Assembly: GCF_018320785.1 (NCBI RefSeq)
Contig: NC_054884.1
Coordinates: forward strand, 16,865,667-16,929,666
From: Cheilinus undulatus
Lineage: Eukaryota > Chordata > Actinopteri > Labriformes > Labridae
Length of the DNA: 64,000 nt
Direction: 5' to 3'
Part shown: positions 5,289-62,395 of the stretch, piece after piece
How positions within the stretch are numbered: position 1 is the stretch's first letter
Layout of the letters: each line of letters begins with the position of its first letter
Translations under genes and position numbers: made by a program
Notes under the pieces: generated by a model
What the model saw: the letters and a program-made list of their open reading frames with translations, nothing else
Database searches by the model: none
What the model was told of the DNA's origin: nothing

Positions 5289-6183
5289 TCAAAGAAAAGA
5301 ATCAATGTCCAAGTCCATGAAAGTGTTAGTATTCATGCTAAATGAGTTGTCATAGGTCTGGGTGTTCTGGTGTAGCTTCTGATGGTGTCGCAGGTTGGAT
5401 TTGCTGGAAAAGCTCTTGTCACACATCATGCAGGTGAATGGTTTCTCCCTGGTGTGGATCCGCCGATGACAAATGAGCTGAGTGGACACACGGAATGCCT
5501 TCCCACACTCCAGACACTGGTAGCGCTTTGGCTCTGTGTGAATGCGCCGGTGGTTCTTGAGTGCCATCAGATTGGTGAACTCTTTCTGGCACACGGAGCA
5601 GGAGAAGGAGCCAGTCTTGTGGCTGTTTTTATGGTTGAGGAGGGAGCCGGCGTGGCGGTAGGTGCGGCCGCAGTGCTCACAGATGTGGCTCTTTTCTTCC
5701 ACGACTGCAGGGTCGTTGCTCGTCTGTGAATTCGTGATGCTTTCTGGAATATGGGACAAAGGTGGAGGAACCTGCTTTGGCATCCCATCCATTCCCATGG
5801 TCTGGTTTATTCCTGAGTCCCAGCAGAGGTTGTTATCAGCAGACTCCCCCACGCCTTGTTGATAGGGGTTCTCAGCCCTGTGGTGAAGCTCCTGGTGCTG
5901 CTGGTAGCTGGATGTGTCTGGAAATGTCTGCTGGCAGAGGCTGCAGACCAAAGATCGCTCCTTTGAGTGCACCTCCATGTGGCTCTGCAGGTGGGAGAGC
6001 AGACAGAAGGTCTTGCCGCACTCAGGGCAGCAGTGGCGCCTCATCTGGGAGTGAATCTGCAGAGTGAGGGGATCGGGAAATGTCTGGAGACACAGGGTGC
6101 AGTGGTGGAGGTTTTCAGAGTGAGTCTTTTTATGGTTGAGAAGAGATCCGGCATGACGGTAAGAGCGCCCACACAGGTCACAC
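5289..6183 (-). CDS. znf646: ZNF646 coding exon 3 (residues 1222-1519, C-terminus)
   Basis: The exon starts at 6183 by completing Met (AT|G) and reads [19 protein letters not shown], so a simple ATG-to-stop reading beginning at 6044 misses the first finger and part of the second. It holds a YRH pair, several classical fingers, a second YRH pair ([24 protein letters not shown]) and two terminal fingers. The tail MDLDIDSFL is acidic and hydrophobic. I recall human ZNF646 also ending in a short acidic/hydrophobic tail (ADLSFSL), so a conserved C-terminal peptide is plausible but unproven. Confidence 0.88.
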
Positions 6184-9100
6184 CTGCAGCAGGGACAAGG
6201 TCATATTCAGCATCTAACAATATCAGACACTCAAATCATGTTAGATTCACTGATATCGCTACAAATTCAAAAGGAACCCTGCATGTTGAGACTAGTTTAC
6301 TTAACGAATTAACAATATCTTTTTTGTGTATGTTGTACAAAGGAACACAAACGGTTTCTACATTTTCACATAAATTTAGTAAATATATTTCTATACAGTC
6401 TGCCAAGGGGTAAAATTTTCTGATATAATGCAATTTTTATGCAATGTCCAGTGATATAGGGCAGTGGCTCACAAATGGTGTGCATGAAGATTTTGGCTTG
6501 ATCTTAGGTGTGCCTTGTGTAAAGTGTTAAAGAACCACTGATACAGAGCAGAGATGTTTTTTGGCCATAAACACCCAAATTTGATGGTTTCTGGGACATT
6601 AAGTGCCACTATTCTATCAGTGTATAGTGATAATTATTGTATTACATATCAGCAGGTTTGCTAGCCTGATTCTGAACAGTTCATAAATTATTACAGAGGA
6701 GGACACATTTTCTCAAGGGAGGCCTGTCAAAACAAAGGTGGGCTGTACACATTTGTTAGTGGGCACTAATTTGATAAAGACACATCTAAGTCAAAGTGTC
6801 ATCTAAAATTTAAGACTTCCAACTAATAACCATAAGACTTTTTTATGGCTTTAAATTTCAAAAGTACAATTTAAGACTTTTCAAGAACCTGCATGGACCC
6901 TGATTTGACAACTTGTTTAAACCCTGTGCCTCTCCCATGTTGTGTGTTTTTTTTAATGTTTTATGGTTTGGTAAAGAAGCCGCTAGCATGGCAGGGTCTC
7001 CAGTGTAAGAAATATTTGATTTTATTGGGAAGTTCTGATAAATTAAGGGTTCAATAAAATATAACAAAATGATGAGACTTATCTGTGAATTACTGATCTG
7101 TATCGATATTTTACTATCCACATAAAGCAAAAGCTCAATAAACTGCATCTACAGCACAAACAGGGGCCTTTGGCAACCCTACTATCCACCCCCGGACAGT
7201 ACCCTAAGCCATGCTTTCTCGCCACATTCACCCCTAGTCCACCTTATAGGTGTGGACTTTATTTTTTTTTCCTAAAGATTATTTTCCATGCCCCTGTTGA
7301 TATGCAAGGACAACAAGAGCATTACTGGGGTTGTGTCAATCCTCCTTCCAACTCTTAGGTGCCTTCAGATGGCTTACTCGCCACATCTATGCTTTACTTC
7401 AGCCTCAATTTTTGTCCCAACATGCCTAAAAGTTCTGCACAGTACTGTACACATATTTTTTTCCTTACTGGATCACATGCAAACTAAACAAATACATGCA
7501 ACCTAACAACGGTTAACACAAGACATGCTAATTTTTTTGTAAATATAACACAAAAAAACTTGAAACAAGCCCCTAATTGTTGAGATGTCTCTGACACCTG
7601 GAGACTGCATCAGAAATAGTCTGATAGAATAGTCTCCATTAAAAAAACAAGCATTTTACAACTGTTTGTCTTGTGGAAAAAGCTGAATGAAATATGTTAC
7701 GATAGGGGAATGGCGTTTGTAAATTGTGTTTATCAACTCAAAAACACAAAAAATAAAAATTTGCACGAGTAAAAAAAGTAATGCTCCCTTTATTCTAGAC
7801 ACACACATACCAGCATAGTTCACAATAATTCAGTTACTCACATGAAGCACTTGTCTGCTCTCTCTGCCTGCTGGACTCCGGCTCTCAAAAAGTTCTCCTG
7901 ACCTTGGCGGCAGCGATGCCTCTTCAGACCGGACCGGCCCTGGAAGCTCTTTCCACACGTAGAACAGCTGAAGTGACTGGCTGCTCGATTGTGGACCCTC
8001 TGATGGTTGTGCAGGATGCTGGCAAGGCGGAAGGCCTTTCCACACGTGAGACACACGTACTTTTTCTTCTGTGTGTGGATGCGTGTGTGATTACGTAGAG
8101 CCATGGGATTGGTGAAGGGCTTGGAGCAGAAGGTGCAGCTAAAGTGTCCTGTCTTGTGGGTGTTTTTGTGGTTTAGGAGTGAGCCAGCATGGCGGTAGCT
8201 GCGGTTACATATGTTGCATGTAAAAGGCCGCTCCTCTTTATTCAGGATAGGGGTTGTGTTTGTTTGTTCATCAGTGCTGCCTGAAGGTCCATTACAGGTG
8301 TGAGCTGCCAGCTGGGCATCAGAAAAAAAGGCCTCCTTACATTCCTTACACTTAAAGGCTCGAGATTTTAAGCCCCGCCTCCCTCCAGCCCCTTCCTTTC
8401 TGAGGTCTGCACAAACATGGGCTAATAGCTGCTTCTTTCCTCTAAAGCCTTTTCCACACTTTTGGCAGGAGTGTTTTTTAAATGCAAAGTGGGTTCGCAA
8501 GTGGTTCTTCATTGCCAGTTGGTTGGAATAAGAGTTGTTGCAAACGGAGCAGTAATATTCACCTGTTTTATGGGAGTTTTTGTGGTTGACCAGACTTCCT
8601 GCGTGGCGATATGTGCGCCCACACTGGTCACAGGCGAAGGGCCGTCCATCACCTGTGTCCTCTGATTTGACTGAAGTCTCAGACTTCATTTGTGGTTGCC
8701 TGCAGCGTCGAGATGAGGTAAAAGCCTGACTGGCATTTGAAGTTAAGGGCTGCATTCCTCCATCAGTGCTGGTCCCATTCATCTGCATGAGTGCCTGGAT
8801 CTGGTTGTTGAGTTCCTGGATTTTGGCCTGGTTCTCTTTGTGCCTTCTCAGGTGATTCAAAAGCTGCTTCTGTATTTTGAAGGCTTTCCCACACTCGTGG
8901 CAAGTGTGCCTGAGGAGAGAGACAAGGCAAATTGTTAATTCTGATAAAGATGGTACAATCAGGCTTGAAACTGACCAATATCACTTACTTACACAAAAAC
9001 ACACTACAACATGAGTACAGAATTGCAAACATGTTTATATTGTGTGTTCTTGTTTAAACTAACCTTTTTATATCAAAGTGTGACCTCTGGTGGTTCTTAA

Positions 9101-11867
9101 GGGCCAACAGGTTGTAGAAACGCTTCTGACAGACAAGGCATCTGAATACACCTGTTTTATGGGACTTTTTGTGGTTAAGGAGGGAGCCAGCATGTCTGTA
9201 CGACCGCCCACACTGATCGCACTTGTAATGACGATGTTCAGTGTCTACAGTTTCTTTCAGGGGAGTGGGGTCTTCATTCTGGGAAACATCATTCACTTTC
9301 ATTTCCTCTTTACAGTGCATTGACTCATCTTTCTTTTCATCTGTGCAGCCATGGTTGTCCAGATGATGGTAGCTGGAGCAGAAAATGCCACAGCTGCCAC
9401 AGATGATACTTTGTGCTTCCTCCTTGCCTTCAGGCACATCACTGTTGTTTATTTGTAAATGATCAACATCAGCCACCTGGTCCTTGTTGTGCAGAAGCTG
9501 ATGAGTTATTAGGTCCTGTCTATTGGCAAAGCTTTCTCCACATGTGCTGCAGATCATCATTTCTCCAGGCTCTTCATCTTTCACTTCATCATGGGAGGAC
9601 ATTGACGAGGGCCCTGAGCTTGCAGGAGTGCTGAGAGACTGCGTATGACCTCGCAGATGGCTCCTGAGTGCCCTCATGCTGGTGTAGCTGTTTCCACATA
9701 TGGAGCACTGATACAGATCTCCATCATCATCCTCTTCATCAGGATTTTCACCGTCTTCTTCTTCTCCCCCGTTCAGCTGATCACTGCTCAGACTTTCCTG
9801 GAAATTCTGTTCAAAATAACTTTGGTTGTGGCTGCCATTCTGACCGTGAAACTCTACATTACTCGCTGGATTTCCAACAGCGCAGTGACCGTTACTGTCC
9901 TGGAAATTCATACTGCTGTCAAAGTCACTGCTAGTATTGTCATGCTGCTGCTGTAACAAAGGGCAACTGTGAGACTTAATTCCTGCAATATCTGCAAATG
10001 TCTCACCACAGTCTGCACACATGTGCCGCTGCATCAGGTGGTCATTGTGAGGTAGATGCACAGTCATATCCTGGGAGAAGTCCTGATTAAACTGCCCATG
10101 ATACAATACTCCACTGCTGTTGTCTACTCCATTTTCTTGATCCATACCAAGATTAGGGAGAGCGGCCTCCTCCCCATCCTCTTGAGAAGAGAAGCAGCTC
10201 TGTTGGTTATCTAGAGGCTCTGAGGAAAGCCAGTCTCCTTCCATGTGGAGGCTGAAAGATGACGGCTGAGCTTTGTGGAGGCGAAGGTGACTTTTGAGGG
10301 CGGCCAGGTGGGGATAATTCTTCCTGCAGATAGAACACTGGTAAATCCCAACCTGATGGGATCTTTTGTGGTTGATGAGACTCCCAGAATGGCGGTAGCT
10401 TTTACCGCAGACTTGACACTTGAAGGGACGCTCATCAGAATCTACAGTTGAGGTCTCATTTATTTCTGTTGCATTGACTGTGTTTTGTGTTTGTGTCAGG
10501 GCAGAATGGAGAATGCCTGGGTCTATAATTGTAGGATCTCCCTGAGTGCTATTGAAAGATGGTATTTGATTGTTGGAGCAGTCCGAGTACACATGTCCAT
10601 TACTTGTGATAAGCTCATGGGGCTGGTCAAAGCCGGCTTGATTATCTAAAGATGATACTGAGGGAACATTGTTTAAAGGAGATGGATAGAAATTTGACTC
10701 AGGTGAAGCAATACTGTTTTCATAGGACATATTGTGGTTCTCTGATAAGGAATCTTGAAGCCCAAATGACACAGATGAGGAATTATGCATCTGAATGTGA
10801 TCCTGGAACTCCTCCTCATTTGGGAAAAGAACCTGACACAGATGGCAGAAATTAACAGGAGCATCTTGGCTCTGAGGTGAGAACTGGTTCAGTGGTGTGC
10901 TTGTGTAAGACCCACCCATCAAACCTGGGTCCGTCCCACTTCTTGCCTTGTGAGTCCTCTGGTGGCTGTAGAGAGCAGCCATGTTATTAAAAAGTTTGAA
11001 ACACACCGTGCACTCAAACATTCCCACTTGGTGAGTCTTTTTATGATTGGTCAGGCTTCGGTGGTGTATGTATGATTTATCACATAAATCACACCTGAAA
11101 GGTCTATTTGCTGCATCATCGGAGGTCTCGGATTGATTATACGCAACCTCTGGCTTTTCCTCAGCTGGGCTATTTTCTGTAGAATTCCTAAAACTGTTTG
11201 AATTCTCACTTAAAGGATGTGGGTGCTCATTTTCATTTTTATGTGAGGGATATTCCATGTCTACCTTCCTATATGACTGCTCCTTTGCTCGCCTGGCAAG
11301 ATGAACCCTTTCATGCGTAGCCAGCTGGGTTGCCAGACGAAAAGCTTTCCCACATTCAGCACAGGAGTATTTTTTCTGTGACGTGTGGCTCCGGAGATGA
11401 CTTTTCAGGGCTAATGCATTGGAGTTTTCTTTACCACATATGTTACATTGAAAAGAGCCCACATCATGAGTCTTTTTGTGGTTAGCGAGGCTACCAGCAT
11501 GCCTATAACAACGTCCGCATTCATCACATTTAAACCTGCGTTCCTCCTCTTGTTGAAGGTGAACTTCCATGTGCTCCTGCAGACTGGGCATGTTGGGAAA
11601 TATCAGGCCACATTGTTTGCAAGGAAATCCTGTTGTCCTGCCAGGATCTTGCAGTGCCATAGCAAGTGAACTGACTTGAGGGCACCAGAAGCAGTGTGGA
11701 TGAACATGCAGAAGGGAACTGCATTAGATGCCTTTGTGGTTAATATAACAAGAAAACAGTTCATTACATTAGCGTCCAAACAGCTTCCAGGGAGGTAACA
11801 CAGTAGGGGATGTGGAGAAACAGTCCAAGATAATTAGGAGAGGTAATGACGACTTGAGTGTGATGAC
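5289..11867 (-). CDS. znf646: Zinc finger protein 646 orthologue, whole gene, 3 coding exons
   Basis: A large poly-C2H2 protein expected to bind DNA in the nucleus. Coding exons are 11660-9064, 8909-7842 and 6183-5289, summing to 4560 nt: 1519 aa plus stop. Splice sites are clear: donor AAAAAG|GTTAGT at 9064, acceptor CTCCTCAG at 8910, donor TTCAT|GTGAGT at 7842, acceptor CTGCAG at 6184. Both introns are phase 2. I count about 32 fingers, several degenerate. The hallmark is a finger reading YRHAGSLxNHKxxH, followed after a short TG-type linker by a second finger ending ALKNHxRxH; this pair recurs along the protein as in human ZNF646. The start ATG is at 11660. A likely acceptor at 11868 makes the 5' UTR continuous with the first coding exon, and a non-coding first exon probably ends at 13562. 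Human ZNF646 is longer, about 1.8 kaa. Confidence 0.9.
6420..6905 (-). repeat. Dispersed hAT-like repeat copy in ZNF646 intron 2
   Basis: This intronic segment shares recognisable stretches with 12077-12562. Examples are CATAAACACCCAAATT with a following TATCAGT-TATA motif, and a tail where CATAAGACTT and a CTGCA-xxx-ACCCTG end occur in the same order. The right end reads GGACCCTG at about 6902, the complement of CAGGGTCC, as in hAT-type termini. The left end is not clear. No coding potential is seen. Confidence 0.5.
7842..8909 (-). CDS. znf646: ZNF646 coding exon 2 (residues 866-1222)
   Basis: The exon opens inside an Arg codon (AG|G) and continues [19 protein letters not shown], then a predicted helical stretch ([19 protein letters not shown]) that could form a short coiled coil. 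It carries YRHAGSL fingers at [10 protein letters not shown] and [10 protein letters not shown], each with a partner finger, plus three fingers that end in H-x-C (LLAHVC, LAAHTC, LKRHRC). It ends in an AT| split codon before GTGAGT. The next in-frame bases would be TGA, so read-through would truncate the protein directly after ADKCFM. Confidence 0.9.
9064..11660 (-). CDS. znf646: ZNF646 coding exon 1 (residues 1-866)
   Basis: Encodes the N-terminal 865 full codons plus two bases. It starts [18 protein letters not shown] and holds about 15 fingers. YRH-type fingers begin near residues 46, 410 and 820, with a variant (YIHHRS) near 200. Long acidic and Ser/Asn-rich spacers separate finger groups, including a run of Glu/Asp just before [10 protein letters not shown]. 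Two fingers, [10 protein letters not shown] and IICGSCGIF, end in H-x-C instead of H-x3-H. The frame stays open for two codons past the donor, so an unspliced reading would stop with LV; the join to the next exon completes finger [10 protein letters not shown], which confirms the splice. Confidence 0.9.
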
Positions 11868-14835: not shown

Positions 14836-16809
14836 ATGGCCTCTCCTCAACCTGGCAGTCCACCTCTTGCAGAGCAGTACACCCCTATTGATCAGGATGA
14901 AGAGAGCCAACAAGAGGAAGAGCTAGTGAAAGATCAGCCTGCAAAAAAACGTGGCAGAGGCAGGCCTCCAAAAGCCAAGCCTTCCTTCAAATGTTCTGCG
15001 TGTTCAGAGACTTACAGGAGTATGTCAGCTCTGCGCAGCCACAAGTTTTTAGCACACACAAAGGACCGCCAACAGCAGCAGCAGCACTCATGTTCACAGT
15101 GTGCCAAAACATTCTCCAGCAAGGCTCAATTGTCAAAGCATGAGCGCACTCACTCAGCCCAGCGTCCTTTTCAGTGTCCTGACTGTCACAAGGCTTACAA
15201 GACACCCACAGAACTGCGCAATCATAGCCGCTCTCACACAGGCGAGAAACCCTTTGTATGCACCGAGTGTGGGAAGGCCTTCATGCAAGCAATATGCCTG
15301 AGGATACATATGACACAACACAGTGGTGAGCGTCCTTACTCATGCCGTCAGTGCTCTAAAAGTTATCCCACCCTGTCAAAACTGAAGGTGCACATGCGTT
15401 CTCACACGGGAGAAAAGCCGTACTTCTGCGCTGAGTGCGGTAAGAGCTTCGCCGATCCTTCCGTGTTCCGAAAACACAGGAGAAATCACCAGGGACATCG
15501 CCCGTATGCTTGTGACAAATGTGGGAAAACATACACAGAGCTGAAGGATCTGAAAAACCACGAGCGCTCCCACACTGGAGAGAAACCCTACCTATGCTCC
15601 GACTGTGGCAAAGCCTTTTCTCGTTCCTCCTCCCTTGCCTGCCATCAGCGCATTCACTCCCAGAATAAACCTTATCAGTGTGAGCAGTGTGGCAAAGGCT
15701 TCACCCAGCTGTCCTCCTACCAATCTCACCTCCGCACGCACTCCGGAGAGAAGCCGTTCCTCTGCCCGCAGTGTGGTAAAATGTTCTCAGATCCCTCAAG
15801 CTTTCGCCGCCACCAGCGAGCCCACCAGGGCTTCAAGCCCTACCCCTGTGATAAGTGCTCCAAAAGGTTCAGACAGCCGGCTGATCTGGCTGTGCATGAG
15901 CGTGTTCACTCCGGGGAGCGTCCATACAAATGCCAGAGCTGCGACAAGGCCTTTGTAGCATCCTGGGATCTCCGACGCCACATGCTCGTCCACACTGGTC
16001 TCAGGCCTTTTTCATGCACAGAGTGTGACAAGTCATTTGCAGAGCGCTCCAGCCTCAACAAACACCGGCGTGTTCACTCTGGAGAGAGGCCCTTTAAATG
16101 TGAGGAGTGTTTGAAGTCATTTGTGGTGTCCTCTAGCCTGCGTAAACACGAGAGGACTCACCTCGCTGAGCATTCTGAGCAGCAGCAACAACAACAGGAA
16201 ACAGAGACAGGATCAGCTTCAGGCTTCACTGCCCACACGACTCTGCCTCAGTTCTCCTGCTCTCACTGTGATGCCACGTTCGGAAGCTGGGATGAAGTCC
16301 AGGCACATGAAAATCTTCACTCCATTGACTCCACTCCTCCGACTGTTACCAAAATCATTCCCCTGGGCTTGCATGTCTGCGAGACCTGCCAGGCAGAGTT
16401 CACACAGTTGGCAGAGCTGCAGGAGCATGAGAAGCAGCATCCCAAGCCGAGGCCTCATGTCTGTAGCGACTGCAGCAAAGGCTTTCTCAACAAATCGGGG
16501 CTGAGGAAACATCAGAAGATCCACTCGGCCGACAAACCCCACAGCTGCCCCCACTGTGGCAAAGCCTTTCTGTTTGCAGCCTACCTTCGCAAGCACTTAC
16601 GGACTCATGCAGACGCTACATCAGCAGCCACACATCTTAGTGACTTGAACATTATTCACACTGACCCGCTGCCCTCTCCTCAACCTCCCAGTGAGGTTTC
16701 CCCCTCCACTGTTGAGCCAAGCACGATCTCCCTGACAGTCCCAGTCACTGTACCTGTGACAGCTTTTCAAACTCTGCCGGAGTACTTAGTCAAAGAGGAG
16801 GGACTTTAA
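14836..16809 (+). CDS. znf668: Zinc finger protein 668 orthologue
   Basis: A 657-residue nuclear C2H2 protein on one coding exon. In mammals ZNF668 is linked to DNA repair and p53 stability; that role is family knowledge, not visible here. The N-terminus is acidic ([10 protein letters not shown]), followed by an AT-hook-like [10 protein letters not shown] at residues 37-46. I count 18 fingers: 1-14 form a long, mainly TGEKP-linked array from about residue 51 to 440; fingers 15-18 follow after a Gln-rich spacer. Runs shared with human ZNF668 as I recall it include [35 protein letters not shown] and [15 protein letters not shown]. The C-terminus is Pro/Ser/Thr-rich and ends EYLVKEEGL. The start is the first ATG after the acceptor. 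It lies head to head with ZNF646. Confidence 0.93.
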
Positions 16810-21492: not shown

Positions 21493-22200
21493 ATGGCTGC
21501 CATAGTAACAGGCCTGATCCCCATCCTGCGCACAGCAGTTGATGCCACCACCACCTACAAGTGTCGCTCGCTGTGGTTTGGCTTCCTGAGCATCCGCCTG
21601 GTGATTCTTTTCCTTGCCGAGCTTCCTTTCACCAAACTGGACGCTGACTTCACCTGCAACGGCACCAGAGACAGCATCTGTACCCGAGCCTGCTTTAACA
21701 GACACTTTCACAAACCCATGATGGTGGCATGGAACTTCATCTTCGTGCTGGTTGTCATCTCTGTGCTGCTCATGGAGCTGTTCACCTCCCACCTGCGCTC
21801 CCTGGCCCAGAAGAGGAGGGATAAGGCAGAGGAGGAGGAGATGAATGCTCAGGGGAAGGAGGAGGCCCCGGATGTGTCCGAAGACCCAAGGGGTAGGACG
21901 GTGATCAACCTTCACAGAGACAGAGGAACGGTGGGCTTCTACCTGCTCAGCATCATCCTGAGAATCCTGGTAGAAACCTGGTTTGTTTGCGTTCTGCTCT
22001 CCTGGAACCTCCCGGCTCTGAGCGATGATCAGTTCAACTGTTCCACAACCATCTGCTCACAGTTACATGTTTGTGTTGTTAGGGCAGCACCAGAGAAACG
22101 CATGTCTATTTACGCCTTGGCTTCCATCTCTGGCATGATTATTGTTGTTTCAGTCTTGTTTTGTATGTACTCCATTGCTCATTACCTCTTCAACGTTTAA
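21493..22200 (+). CDS. Divergent connexin-family (gap junction-like) protein
   Basis: 235 aa, one exon, four predicted membrane segments at about residues 27-46, 76-98, 146-170 and 204-233. The extracellular loops carry three cysteines each: loop 1 C55-x7-C63-x3-C67, loop 2 C183-x4-C188-x5-C194. Loop 2 has the exact connexin spacing and is followed by VVRAAPEKRM, like the connexin SRPTEK block. Loop 1 is one residue longer than the usual C-x6-C-x3-C. The cytoplasmic loop is charged (residues 99-145); the C-terminal tail is only a few residues. Odd points: the N-terminus lacks the usual GxW/FL start, and sequons N56-G-T and N182-C-S sit in the two loops. The start is the ATG at 21493, since the in-frame codon at 21487 is GTG. 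It could form gap junctions or only hemichannels. I cannot assign a connexin subfamily; it is not the GJE1 type, which lacks the full cysteine set. Confidence 0.72.
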   Translation: MAAIVTGLIPILRTAVDATTTYKCRSLWFGFLSIRLVILFLAELPFTKLDADFTCNGTRDSICTRACFNRHFHKPMMVAWNFIFVLVVISVLLMELFTSHLRSLAQKRRDKAEEEEMNAQGKEEAPDVSEDPRGRTVINLHRDRGTVGFYLLSIILRILVETWFVCVLLSWNLPALSDDQFNCSTTICSQLHVCVVRAAPEKRMSIYALASISGMIIVVSVLFCMYSIAHYLFNV

Positions 22201-32100: not shown

Positions 32101-35100
32101 GATCTATGTAAGACAAGACACTGTGCACCCCCACATACCTGGGGGTGGTCTTCATTGCAGGTGTTCAACCATGAGATTGGTAGTCCACTGAGACTCTTTC
32201 AAATGAATTGCTTAATATTCTATTTTTTGCAGTGATCCCAATTCAAGTAATTCTTATTTGTTTAAATTGTCTGTCAGAAACGCCACAGCACAAGATAGTC
32301 CATGTGATTATGCAGTTCTGAGAAATGGTCTGCACCATAGGTCACATGTAAACTGTGCATTATTTAGACAAAATCTACCTTTGACCCAGGCTGTCTGGAG
32401 GCCATAGTAATCGCCAAAAGAGCAGCTGGGCCGAGAGCTGTTGTCCCACTTTCAGATAATCTTCAACAAGAGGAAAAGAAAATACATCTGTTTTTCTGAG
32501 CATGACGTTAGCATTATGTAAGAAAAGAAAAAAACACAAACAAATTGATTTTACACCAGTTTTTCTTACCCCCGGACTTGTCTCTGTAAGTAGTCCTTGG
32601 TGTGTGAGAGGGGAGGAGGGACGGGAAAACTGGCTGCAGCCTCTTTCAGATAGTCTACGTCTGCCAACTCGGCACTGCTCAGGAAATGTGAAGTGAAATT
32701 CTCATATCCATGCAGTGTCACCTTGGGACACAAAACAGAAGGGGATACAGAACTTGAAAACTGTACTTAGATTGTTTTATGAGATAAGAAAAAATCCATG
32801 AGCAGTCAAATAAGGACTTTAAAGACACAAATCAATCACATGTTTATAAAAAAAAACAAGTATATACCTGATTATTGAAGGTGATGAGACCCACTTGTGT
32901 GTCAGGCTGTTGCTCACTCAGCATTTGAACACACTGGAGCACAGCTTCCTGGACAAACTGGTTAGAAAACAAAGAATGTTTTTTTTCAAATCTCCAGATG
33001 AATCTCATATCTCTATATCTACTATCTCACTGCAACATCTTGATCAAACGCATGGGAGTTATGAATGTCTTTGTGGATTTCTATGATGTGTATGACCTGT
33101 GTGCACAATTACCATCTTCTTATGCATTTACAAAAACAGATACTTTTCAATTTGATAGAGTTGATTTCTAAGCAATTTCTCAGTGTGTGCTAAGTGCTAC
33201 AATTTCTAGGTTCATTACAACCTCTGGAGTAGTGGAGGCTAATGTGTTTCAGGAAAATCTCAGTCTACCTAAGAAGTGAGTTACACAGTGGCTTTACTCT
33301 GACTAAATGCAGTGGAATAAACCCAAAAAGAGACAGCATTTATTGTGATTTACTTTGATTTAATGAGTCATATATTTTCTAAAATAAAAACATCATGATA
33401 CTGATTTATAAAAATTAATAATAGGCTTTGGCTTTTTTCTGGCTGAAGCCTATGTAGCAGCAGCACTGAATGTGACTTCAGCTGCAAGGAAGAGTTATGG
33501 ATGAGAGGAGGGCAGCACTGAACTATCCACAGTGGATGTTTTTGTCTTACTTTGGAAATACTCCAAATAAATCATGATGGTTGGATTTTACTGTTTTGGT
33601 GGAGGTTACAGTTGAGATCATCAGTTAATGCGGACTAATACTGGACAGTTGACGGGGAAACTCATTTGAAAGGCAGAGTTTTAATGTGACTTATAGGCTG
33701 GTTAGTTATTTGTTTGGAGGATCTGTTGGTGTTTTCAGAGGAGGATGTTATTTTGCCTTTGGAAAGTTTTAGATTATGGTAGCAGCTAATGTGCTAATGG
33801 GCTAACTTAGAGCTAACAGTACTAATGTGAAGATAAGTGCTGTTTTTGTTTATGTGTTTAACATAGGTGTGTACTGTGAAACTGACCATGTGTGAGGAAC
33901 AGCTCACAGTTTTCATTATGTTTGTTATAAGCTACATAAAGAAAAATCAACTGGCTCTCCACAGTCATTTCCAAGGTCCAGTTAAGCAGGCTATAATAAC
34001 AGGGTAACAAGAACTCTGGCTGTGCTGGACTTGGATCAGTTTCAAACAGAAACATGTTTTCTCAGCTCTGCTTTAGCGCAGACTTAAAGCCATATCACAG
34101 TGTTTCTGTTTATATGTTTCATTGCTGTTAAATGCAGGTTACTGGTCAGACAGCCATCTGAAGTTTATATAAATTTAGTTGTTTTAAATGGCCAGACCAG
34201 GAATTTTTGCCAGATTAAAAAATGTCTGGCAGAAACTCTGGTGCAGCTAACAATCCATTGTGAATCAAACATTTCAATTTGAGCCACAAAGCTTTTTCAT
34301 GTTGTGTTGCTAAAGCCAATTAGCGTTAGGATTTGGTCACTACCAGAAACACATTAATAATCTTATCATCCTGGATTAAAAAAACAACCATTTAACGGAC
34401 AGACCTGATACTGATTGACCTTTAAGTTTTAACAAGTCTGAATAATGATGTATATAATTTGTCAAACTTAACCCCTAACTTTGAGTCACTAACAATGAAA
34501 TTTATTTATTTTTTTGGCTCATATGGCTGAAATGTGTGCGAGTAAAGCTGTTGTATACTGATGAACTGGGACCCAAAAAGTAATGGCACTCCTAAGTACT
34601 GAAAAATAAATTAGGACATACAGTGCTTAACAAATTTATTAGACCACCACCCAAAGTAAGGTTTATGCCACAGCTGCCCTAAATTAACAGCATTGGTGAT
34701 TACCAAAATCATTTTTTATGTTTCTGCAATGGTTAATACACCAATATTTAGAAGCTCTTTAACAGAAATTATATTTTTAATGCTGAAATATAATTATTAT
34801 TGTTATCCATGAATTTTCAAATTTATTAATTTACAAAAAAACTGAAAAAATAGTAAAGCACATTATTATTTCTTGATTAATATGTCAAATTATAGTTATT
34901 TACTTGCATTCCTGAACAGAAGAATGAGTTTTAGTGGTTGAATGTTATGTTTGATTAATTTCTGACTTCTCAGAGAAGCCCAGTGAGCCGGCTCAAATTT
35001 GGGTATAAAAAGGTGAATTCAGTTCACAAGGCTTAAAGGGAAGAATAGCTGCTAAGAAGCCATTATTGGGGCCTGCAAACATCCAGAAACGCCTGAGATT

Positions 35101-38100
35101 TGCCAGGGAGCACAAACACTGGACTGTGATGACTGGAAGAAGGTACTCTGGATGGACGAGTCCAAGTTTGAACTCTTCGGTCAGCGTGTTTATGTCTGCA
35201 GAAAAGCTGGAGAACGTTTTGATGCCAGATGCATTGCACCCACAGTGAAACACAGTGGAGATTCCATTATGGTATGGGGTTCCATTTGTGGATACGACGT
35301 GGGCAAATTAGTCAAATTCGACAGTATAGGGGAGCAGGTGGCCTAGTGGTTAAAGGCGCTCCCCATGTACACGGGCGGCAGGGGTTCGAATCCAGCCTGA
35401 GGCCCTTCACTGCATGTCTCTCCCCCACTCTTGACCCTGCTTCCAACTATATCCACTGTCCTCCTCTATCTAATAAAGGCACAAAAATGCCCAAAGATAA
35501 ATCTTAAAAAAAAAAAAAATCGACGGTATCATGAACAAGAACGTCATGGAATTCCTTCTGGACTGAACCTGGTTGGTCGTGGGTTCATATACCAACAAGA
35601 CAATGACCCCAAGCATACTTCAAAGCTGTCCAGAGACTATTTGACAGAGAAAAAGGAATCTGGAGTACTGGAACTGATGGACTGGCCAAGTCAAAGTCCA
35701 GATTTGAATCCTATTGAACAAATTTGGGGTTTAGTAGATTCAAAGATTGATGGCACAAAAGTTTCATCTAAAGCAAGTCTGTGGGAACAGCTAGAAACTA
35801 TTTGGAACTCAGTTACAAAAGAGACTGTGGAAAAGTACATAAAAACAATGCCAACAAGAATGTAAGCTGTTATTAAGGCCAAAGGAGGCCATACAAAATA
35901 TGAAGTTTTTTGGTTATTATGTGTGAAAAAGGACTATTTAGTTGTTCAGTTTGTTATTTGCCAAATAAATAACAATAACATTTTTAGTTTTAAACAAGTT
36001 TTTGAAAGATTTCTAAAATATTTATGTTTTCTCGTTATTATGACAGGTGGTCTAATAAATTTGTTAAGCACTGTATATATTAGAAATGTAAATGCCACAT
36101 GCAAAAGGAGGTCTTACCTTCAAACAAAATTACAAAGATACTAATGTCTGTCCTCAGAGGCATACAAAATTAATGAGATGATCACTGCCAATGTTTCCTG
36201 AAATTTCAGCAAGGCTTCAGAACACTTCTCAGACTAAAAATCCATACTACAAGCACAGATTATATATATATTTTTAAATCTGTACATGGAGCCATTTTTT
36301 TAGCTTATGTATCAATCAGTTTGTACCTTTTAAAATAACATGACAGAGTGTTGTGAACTAAAAACTGTGTTTATTCTCAGACTGACAGAGGTTAAAAGAC
36401 ACTTGACTTACATGAAGACGAGATCTGTGGAAGACTTCCTCTCCCTCTAACACCTAAAAAAAAAGATGATTTTTAACATCAAAACTTGTGTTTATAAATG
36501 CTGTATGTAACACAGAGTAAACATAAAGGCATTTGGCAACACCTGTTAATTACTGAATTCAGATGTTTCAATCAGATCTGTTGCCACAGGTGTATATAAT
36601 CAAGCGCCTAGCTATGCAGTCTCCATTTGCAAGTACTTGTGATACAAAATGGGTCGTCCCGAAGAGCTCAATGACTTCGATGGGGCTTTTCCATTACATG
36701 GCGCGGCTCGACTTGGTTTGACTTGGCACAGCAGCCCAGCACGGCAGGGGATTTGCTTTTCCACCATAACCAAGCTACCTGTTTGAGGTAGCTGAGTGTG
36801 TTTTGAGCCCTCCTTGATCTCTCTACACTGTCTGATCTGATTGACTTTACATCGTTTTAAAGCAAAAATCAAACTGTAGACTGACTGCGCTGCACAATGC
36901 TCTTTTCACATTCTCTCCCTCTCTCTCTCTCCACGATCAATAAACAAACAATAATTTACTCTTATCATCAAAAGGAGAGGATTTTCCTGCATATAAGTTG
37001 AAGGACAGTCTTCTGATGATTGATTTGTAGGTCCCTTGAGAGCAGAACATGAACACAATCATATTTTTGGATTGGGCAGTGAGAACGGCATGCTTTACTA
37101 GCGCCAGTTAATACATTAAAGACTGACTCTGTCATGGGCTCAATGTCATGGGCTCCTGCAATTAATTTTTTTTAAAAGTCTAGATTTTGTCTATCAGAAG
37201 GGGAAGGGTCAAGCTTTTGTTATTAGTAGGTGCAGAAAAAGTTGTAATCCTGGATCCGATGACAACAAGATCACATGTACATTAGAGATTACGTAATCTT
37301 GACACTTCCTGCTAGTGTAATGGTGAGGCGGCTGAACACTTTCATCCATATTGTGTATTATTGTGTAGTTTTGTAGTTTTTACCTGTGAGGTGATGCTCA
37401 TAGAGCCTGAGATGTCAATACAGAAGAGCAGTAGAGCATTTGTTGACCCCAGCAGCTTTTCCTGAGGATTGAGCAGAAAGAGTCCGTCCTGGTAACCTGT
37501 TAGAAGACTCTGTGATGAACTGGGAGAACTGGTTGACTCACAGGGCTGACAGAAGTAGCACAAATCCACCTGCAATTATAAAAAGGTATACAAATAGCCC
37601 CATCATTCTTTGTTTTGGTATTTCATAATTCATAATCTTTGTCTTCCATGATCTGTATTCTGTGTACTTACCATATTGTCATAGCAGGAGTCCAGCACAG
37701 ATCCACACTGGGAGCAGGCAGAGGGTTCTCCCTGTATGATCTGCACTGGAAATATTTAAACATCACTGTCATTATGAGCCAATCAGAGTGGAAATAAACT
37801 AGACTGACTGATCATGAAGTTTTTAAAGCAATGATAAAAGTTTTCAGACCTTGTTCCTCTGATATTAATTTTTCTAAACTGACGAGCATCACATTAGGGT
37901 TCCCCTGCAAGGGACTTTTATCTGCTGGTCCTGAACCAGGGAAATGTAGATCATTAAAAATGACCATTTGATCATGATTTTAAATCTTTATTTTTTGTCA
38001 AGAACAACTGTGGTAATTATTTTTACTTGTTGGTGATGGTGGAACTGGCCCCTCAGAGAGTGATTTCTGAGATGATGATGTGGATGTGGGCAACACCATC

Positions 38101-46425: not shown

Positions 46426-57242
<10,817 letters not shown>

Positions 57243-59279: not shown

Positions 59280-59780
59280 CATAGTTAGAAATGTCCAAAT
59301 GCAATTCCAAAAAAGTTGGGACACTGTACAATGCAAAATTAAAACAGAAAACAAGGATTTGCAAATAATATTTTACCTTATTTCAACTGAATACAGTACA
59401 ACGAGAACATACAAGGACTGTAATGGGATGTTGTATTTAAATACATGTTTATGTGAAGAGTCAGTCCCCCTTCTACAGCTTTCAACAAGATTTCGGAGTG
59501 TTTCTGTGGGAATTTGTGCCCATTCATTCTGCAGAGCATGTATGAGGTTAGGCACTGGCTCACAACCTCTATTCCACTTTATCCCAAAGTTGCTCATTTG
59601 GGTTGAATCAGGGTTCTGTGTGGGCCAGTCAAGTTCCTCCACACCAAAATCATCAAACCATGTCTTTATAGTCCTTGCTTTGTGCACTGATGCACAGTCA
59701 TGTTGGAAGAAAAAAGGGTCTACAACAAACTGTTGTCAAAAAGTTGGAAGTATAGCATTGTCCAAAATAATTGTGTGATT
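59280..59780 (-). mobile_element. Tc1-like transposase remnant, reverse orientation
   Basis: Minus-strand translation gives TIKTWFDDFGVEELDWPTQNPD, a worn DWPxxSPDLNP box, then EWAQIPTETLRNLVESC, the C-terminal motif typical of another teleost Tc1 family. Upstream codons on the minus strand carry the CCTTTTTTCTTCCAACATGACTG phrase. The far end (59298-59330) has CAATTCCAAAAAAGTTGGGAC, a motif of a separate common fish repeat. Dead copy. Confidence 0.65.
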
Positions 59781-61863: not shown

Positions 61864-62395
61864 TTAACGTGTGGGCCAGAGAGTCAATATGAAACTTGAA
61901 GGTGAGTTTTTGATCTTACCAAATACGAAGATATTTATACTCAGAAACTCTTTCATGCTGTGTCCTGTTAGAATGGTGATGTGAAAATTATTGTCCTTGA
62001 TGTCTGTGGCTCTGGAGTATAACATGAATTTGGTCTTGCTAGGATTGAGAACCAGTCTTAAATTAAACAGAGCATGTTGTAATTGATTGAAAGTTCGCTG
62101 AAGAGTTTGAATGGCTGAATGGGAAGTACTGGCAAAACAAAATGAAATTGTATCATCAGCATAATGGTGGGTGTTCAAATCTATTATAGAGGATGTGATA
62201 TTGTTGATGTATATTGTAAAAAAGGTATTACCCAGTTTTGAACGTTGCAGCACCCCTTTTGATAGTGGCAAACACACAGAACGACAATTACCAAGAACCA
62301 CACATTGATCTCCCTGTGAAGGTAGTCCTGGAACCATTTACAAAACAGAGAGTCAAAACCAATTTCTTTTAACCTCTCAAGGAGCATCAAGCTAT
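61864..62395 (-). mobile_element. LINE reverse-transcriptase remnant of a second family
   Basis: Minus-strand translation gives a worn PLSKGVLQRSKLGNTFFTIY (the GVPQGSxLGPxLFxIYIN block), then HHYADDTISF (the catalytic YADD box) and LNPSKTKFMLYS. The order is that of L2/Jockey-like non-LTR retrotransposons and differs from the FADD LINE at 2, 23 and 42 kb. The frame is open for 157 codons but substitutions in the conserved blocks mark decay. It interrupts the 42-bp minisatellite region. Confidence 0.75.

Follow-up and report, generated by a model that had tools for sequence, protein, structure and literature searches.

In a 64,000-nucleotide stretch of the Cheilinus undulatus genome (contig NC_054884.1, positions 16,865,667 to 16,929,666; hereafter the window), we found an intact gene of the connexin family whose product carries one N-glycosylation sequon in each of its two extracellular loops. 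Judged from its residues, this protein may be a very divergent channel of the connexin fold that has given up docking and works instead as a glycosylated hemichannel, a reading to which we give about even chances. In mechanistic terms, the gene encodes a complete subunit with the connexin fold, from a very divergent lineage that is most likely gjz1. Such subunits would probably form a channel ring within a single plasma membrane, and this channel would probably be unable to dock with that of a neighbouring cell because its gap-spanning hydrogen-bond residues are replaced. Docking would also be obstructed by N-glycans, above all by one attached to N56 at the docking tip of loop 1. The gene and its parts are as follows, in window coordinates.

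21493..22200, + strand: complete connexin-family coding sequence in a single open frame (235 amino acids, 26.7 kDa; coordinates include the stop codon)
21622..21726, + strand: first extracellular loop (residues 44-78), C55-x7-C63-x3-C67, in which the DEQ and QPG motifs of other connexins are absent
21658..21666, + strand: sequon 1, N56-G57-T58, immediately after C55, with N56 aligned to the Cx26 docking residue N54
22006..22104, + strand: second extracellular loop (residues 172-204), C183-x4-C188-x5-C194, with 4 extra residues (177-180, SDDQ) ahead of C183
22036..22044, + strand: sequon 2, N182-C183-S184, with N182 at the Cx26 K168 position

Extracellular loops and docking residues

The whole protein holds exactly two N-X-S/T motifs, N56 (NGT) and N182 (NCS), and its translation bears out the first-pass annotation, which had read three cysteines per loop, a C-x7-C first-loop spacing and a sequon beside a cysteine in each loop. 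For comparison we built an alignment of the protein and 31 further connexin domains from its genome, leaving out matches with stops and partial or split ones (L032, L033, L036-L044); this alignment also underlies the tree, identities and loop counts below, and the same 31 regions served for codon usage. The six loop cysteines are kept in connexin order and the loop 2 spacing fits C-x4/5-C-x5-C, while the C-x7-C of loop 1 is unlike all 31 other domains (family pattern C-x6-C-x3-C). The extra residue is G57, which is without counterpart in the others and sits between a common N (28/31) and a common T (29/31), so that the N56 sequon exists because of a one-residue insertion between conserved neighbours. 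The motifs around it are replaced as well: positions 48-50 read K-L-D where the other domains have D (31/31), E (31/31) and Q (29/31), and the residues ahead of the second loop 1 cysteine read D-S-I where the others have Q (30/31), P (31/31) and G (31/31). Loop 2 has lost the Pro preceding its second cysteine (31/31 in the others), together with the Val (30/31) and the acidic residue (D in 22, E in 4 of 31) preceding its third. Misalignment at the sequons was ruled out, since each touches a loop cysteine that fixes the register. N-G-T is a sequon type that is usually well used, N-C-S less so.

Docking positions of Cx26 were mapped onto the protein by anchoring on the cysteines, using this alignment and a printed alignment with Cx46, with Cx26 numbers for the neighbouring cysteines that we take to be correct. 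By this mapping Cx26 N54 falls on the sequon Asn N56 and K168 on the sequon Asn N182, Q57 is lost, and Q, L and V take the places of N176, T177 and D179. With both sequons on docking positions and contact residues replaced, even an unglycosylated form would be doubtful as a docking protein, and the placement of the sequons seems to matter more than their presence. The first-pass suggestion of a protein working mainly as a hemichannel is thus plausible and gains strength from the replaced docking residues, with hemichannel function itself something we infer. Among human connexins, Q57 is described as absolutely conserved and N54 and D179 as well conserved, in the passages on docking contacts of PMC5414816.

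Loop sequons in the connexins of the genome

Chance levels were estimated by shuffling the residues within each loop and counting the share of draws that held a sequon. For the protein itself, shuffled versions of loop 1 held one 25% of the time and those of loop 2 27% of the time, and both loops would do so by chance in about 7% (the product of the two loop rates). In the 31 other domains, shuffling expects 6.1 sequons in loop 1 and 2.4 in loop 2, and the observed counts were 0/31 and 0/31; outside the loops the same domains carry 11. Extraction by regular expression over more loci likewise found sequons in 0/39 first loops (E1) and 0/34 second loops (E2), with an expression that required E1 to contain P-G-C and E2 to be followed by E-K, and that favours ordinary loops and is blind to strongly divergent ones. 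Some loops so extracted are exon pieces or frames containing stops; no E1 came from L041, L043 and L044 and no E2 from L024, L030, L031, L032, L034, L039, L042 and L043, and L002, which lies at the same place as L008, was dropped from this count and from that of the 31 domains. Avoidance of loop sequons thus seems to be the pattern among the other connexins here, and this gene departs from it. That connexins normally lack loop glycosylation, as the first-pass annotation had held, is stated in the corresponding passage of a review (PMC5983588) and agrees with the counts in the 31 domains. Among the papers listed by literature searches on connexin glycosylation and on gjz1, a zeta or a new connexin subfamily, we noticed none describing loop sequons in a connexin; gjz1-type terms occurred in two papers.

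A further observation on loop composition concerns L031 (G000:C14:2561492-2562145, + strand), a connexin with an open domain in which the first loop 2 cysteine is replaced by Phe, leaving five loop cysteines, and the loop 1 docking Gln is Ser.

An intact gene of the connexin family

The frame comprises 235 codons and a stop, with 0 internal stops, and the connexin assignment holds under a profile search, with Pfam Connexin (PF00029) matching residues 15-228 (E 9.2e-27; 94.7 bits against a curated cut-off of 31.3). Cysteines lie at positions 24, 55, 63, 67, 166, 183, 188, 194 and 224, and hydropathy gives the four hydrophobic segments expected for a connexin. A structure model computed from an alignment of connexins has the four-helix connexin fold and is compatible with family membership; its final helix stops at residue 233 of 235, so the C-terminal tail is nearly nil, as had been noticed on first reading. 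An AlphaFold model from the single sequence was poor (predicted local distance difference test, pLDDT, 54). The codon-usage score (0.31) and the third-position GC content (GC3, 0.68) both lie within the range of the 31 other domains (0.12 to 0.54 and 0.57 to 0.81), and the top score among 1000 control sequences encoding the same protein at flank base composition was -0.15. Because codon usage and GC3 lie among the values of other connexins, we take the open reading frame to be a real gene and not noise; a chance frame was ruled out by the profile match and codon usage.

Divergence and assignment to gjz1

Searching the genome (1.17 Gb, 46 contigs) with the Pfam Connexin profile gave 56 matches, 55 of them above cut-off and many of them exon pieces. 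Among the stop-free matches covering the greater part of the profile, it scored lowest for this gene, with 94 bits as against 228 to 347 for the others. Its identity to the 31 other domains is 17 to 24%, where the least related of those still has a partner at 40%, and of 41 columns conserved to 90% or more among the others it keeps 16, where every other row, itself left out, keeps at least 84%. Its end branch in a tree built by maximum likelihood measures 10 changes per column, which is presumably the ceiling of the tree program, and the root is a midpoint for drawing only, so that an outgroup position is not shown by the tree. A supported split (98/99) separates it from 19 rows; by path length, four delta-like-looking rows come closest, over a branch too long to read kinship from. 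Besides the gene itself, the protein had one match in the genome, 26% identical, and scans of viral contigs and of bacterial and archaeal contigs gave no relative.

The alternative offered by the first-pass annotation, an under-described fish connexin lineage, is supported by this degree of divergence and by its fit with the published description of gjz1. Zebrafish gjz1 (Cx26.3) is presented in PMC9073686 (2022) as a previously unreported connexin, an outgroup that is said to be conserved in mammals, with a predicted mass of 26.3 kDa beside the 26.7 found here, and Table 1 of that paper lists nervous-system expression and no known phenotype. Since ours is a strongly divergent intact match of its own genome, and the sole such gene among the connexin-profile matches, we consider it likely to be the gjz1 of C. 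undulatus, an assignment made from the published description of gjz1 and not from its sequence; scans of the PDB, viral and prokaryote sets gave no gjz1 sequence. The lineage is probably already named, then, as gjz1 in zebrafish. Connexin-like genes possibly forming another subfamily are mentioned in a passage of PMC7914757, and gjz1 is perhaps the ENSDARG00000086255 of that paper; the word "glycosyl" is absent from the main texts of both papers.

Comparison with known channel families

With classic connexins such as Cx26 (GJB2) the protein shares the profile, the fold as modelled and the three plus three loop cysteines, but it is at most 24% identical to the 31 of its own genome, has x7 and not x6 in loop 1, and combines replaced docking motifs with sequons in both loops. 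Precedents for hemichannel connexins come from Cx31.3 (GJC3) and mouse Cx23 (GJE1), which are reported as hemichannels and not gap junctions in the sections of PMC11117596 and PMC10598745 that treat them and which were compared here by description, outside the tree. Loop 2 of Cx31.3 is given as C-x5-C-x5-C (PMC11117596, same section), as against C-x4-C-x5-C here, and PMC7066803 assigns the former pattern to GJB3 instead. Identity with gje1/Cx23 was rejected, given the four loop cysteines described there (PMC10598745), with spacings listed as C-x10-C and C-x12/13-C (PMC6858305), as against six in our protein. A pannexin or innexin was rejected as well, no such family being among the Pfam matches up to E 1. 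Pannexins are described as bearing extracellular-loop sequons and as forming single-membrane channels (PMC8769644, passage on pannexins), and the resemblance is one of working only, in the loop sequons and, on our reading, in the single-membrane channel.

Weighing of alternative explanations

Several points weigh against a non-docking, glycosylated hemichannel. The pair of sequons is not improbable given the composition of the loops and taken alone is weak evidence; both are known here from a single species; the N56 sequon could be a side effect of a single glycine insertion; and the disulfide cysteine inside N182-C-S may reduce occupancy. The connexin fold of the model is partly built in by its alignment input. 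The docking Asn N54 is itself retained, as N56, and two other loops of the genome are also without the Gln, L031 (S) and L039 (E). In eutherian connexins, moreover, each cluster is annotated with 0 to 3 shared predicted sites (PMC6858305). Many human connexins are described as divergent at L56, K168, N176 and T177 (PMC5414816), which leaves the replacements in the Q57 and D179 columns as the only ones that would weigh heavily. That variation among human connexins also suits the idea, unlikely in our view, that the protein still makes gap junctions via a lineage-specific docking interface, its sequons unoccupied or tolerated, an idea further consistent with the retention of all six loop cysteines, with a structure model in keeping with the connexin fold, with the zebrafish Cx23 that appears to form gap junctions on four loop cysteines (PMC10598745, zebrafish passage) and with seven sequon-bearing innexins that belong to working gap junctions (PMC8769644, passage on innexins). 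Set against this is the loss of the absolutely conserved Gln, of the P-G and of the usual loop 2 acidic residue all together, with a sequon on the docking Asn.

We think it improbable that the protein acts without a surface channel of its own, as an auxiliary or inhibitory subunit in the rings of other connexins or as an intracellular channel. It lacks an N-terminal-region tryptophan that is present, by eye, in 26 of the 26 rows reaching that position, as well as the loop 1 DEQ motif (31, 31 and 29 of 31 others), and pore and gating are therefore likely altered; mixing with other connexins is, however, not obvious at 24% identity or less. Very improbable is a degenerating copy whose odd loops reflect decay: the extreme divergence (end branch 10) would suit it, but the 235-codon frame is intact, the six loop cysteines are present, codon usage and GC3 fall within the spread of the 31 other domains, and no recent source copy is seen, the sole other genome match being 26% identical. 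For the hemichannel reading we also propose, more tentatively, that an old vertebrate connexin lineage has become an obligate N-glycosylated channel of a single membrane in which the loop 1 docking Asn itself bears the sugar, a possible convergence on pannexins.

Other features of the window

Neighbouring exon pieces compared with Pfam were without a match in 4 of 10 cases, and one match below cut-off was taken as spurious. Exons of a pacsin-like gene lie at 49107-57109 (- strand), including an F-BAR piece at 56942-57109, whose top PDB sequence match is PACSIN3, and an SH3 piece at 49107-49307. Long C2H2 zinc-finger frames occupy 5289-11660 (-) and 14836-16809 (+); those of 868 and 657 amino acids were confirmed by Pfam, and the others, at 5289-8860, were recognised by eye. 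At 32566-33026 (-) there are two exon-like pieces, one with weak VWA and Sec23-trunk matches under the curated cut-offs and the other with no match. By eye from the translations, look-alikes of Tc1-type transposase fragments were seen at 35000-35865 (+) and 59373-59735 (-), and one of a reverse transcriptase fragment at 61864-62337 (-).

Significance

By the usual description, connexins are free of glycans and made to dock, and the protein presented here would, if our reading is true, be a natural non-docking connexin. It would then parallel the pannexins and offer a test of what roles the loops have other than docking. As gjz1, its likely counterpart, is listed for zebrafish with nervous-system expression and without a known phenotype (PMC9073686, Table 1), the reading would also supply a ready hypothesis for a knock-out there.
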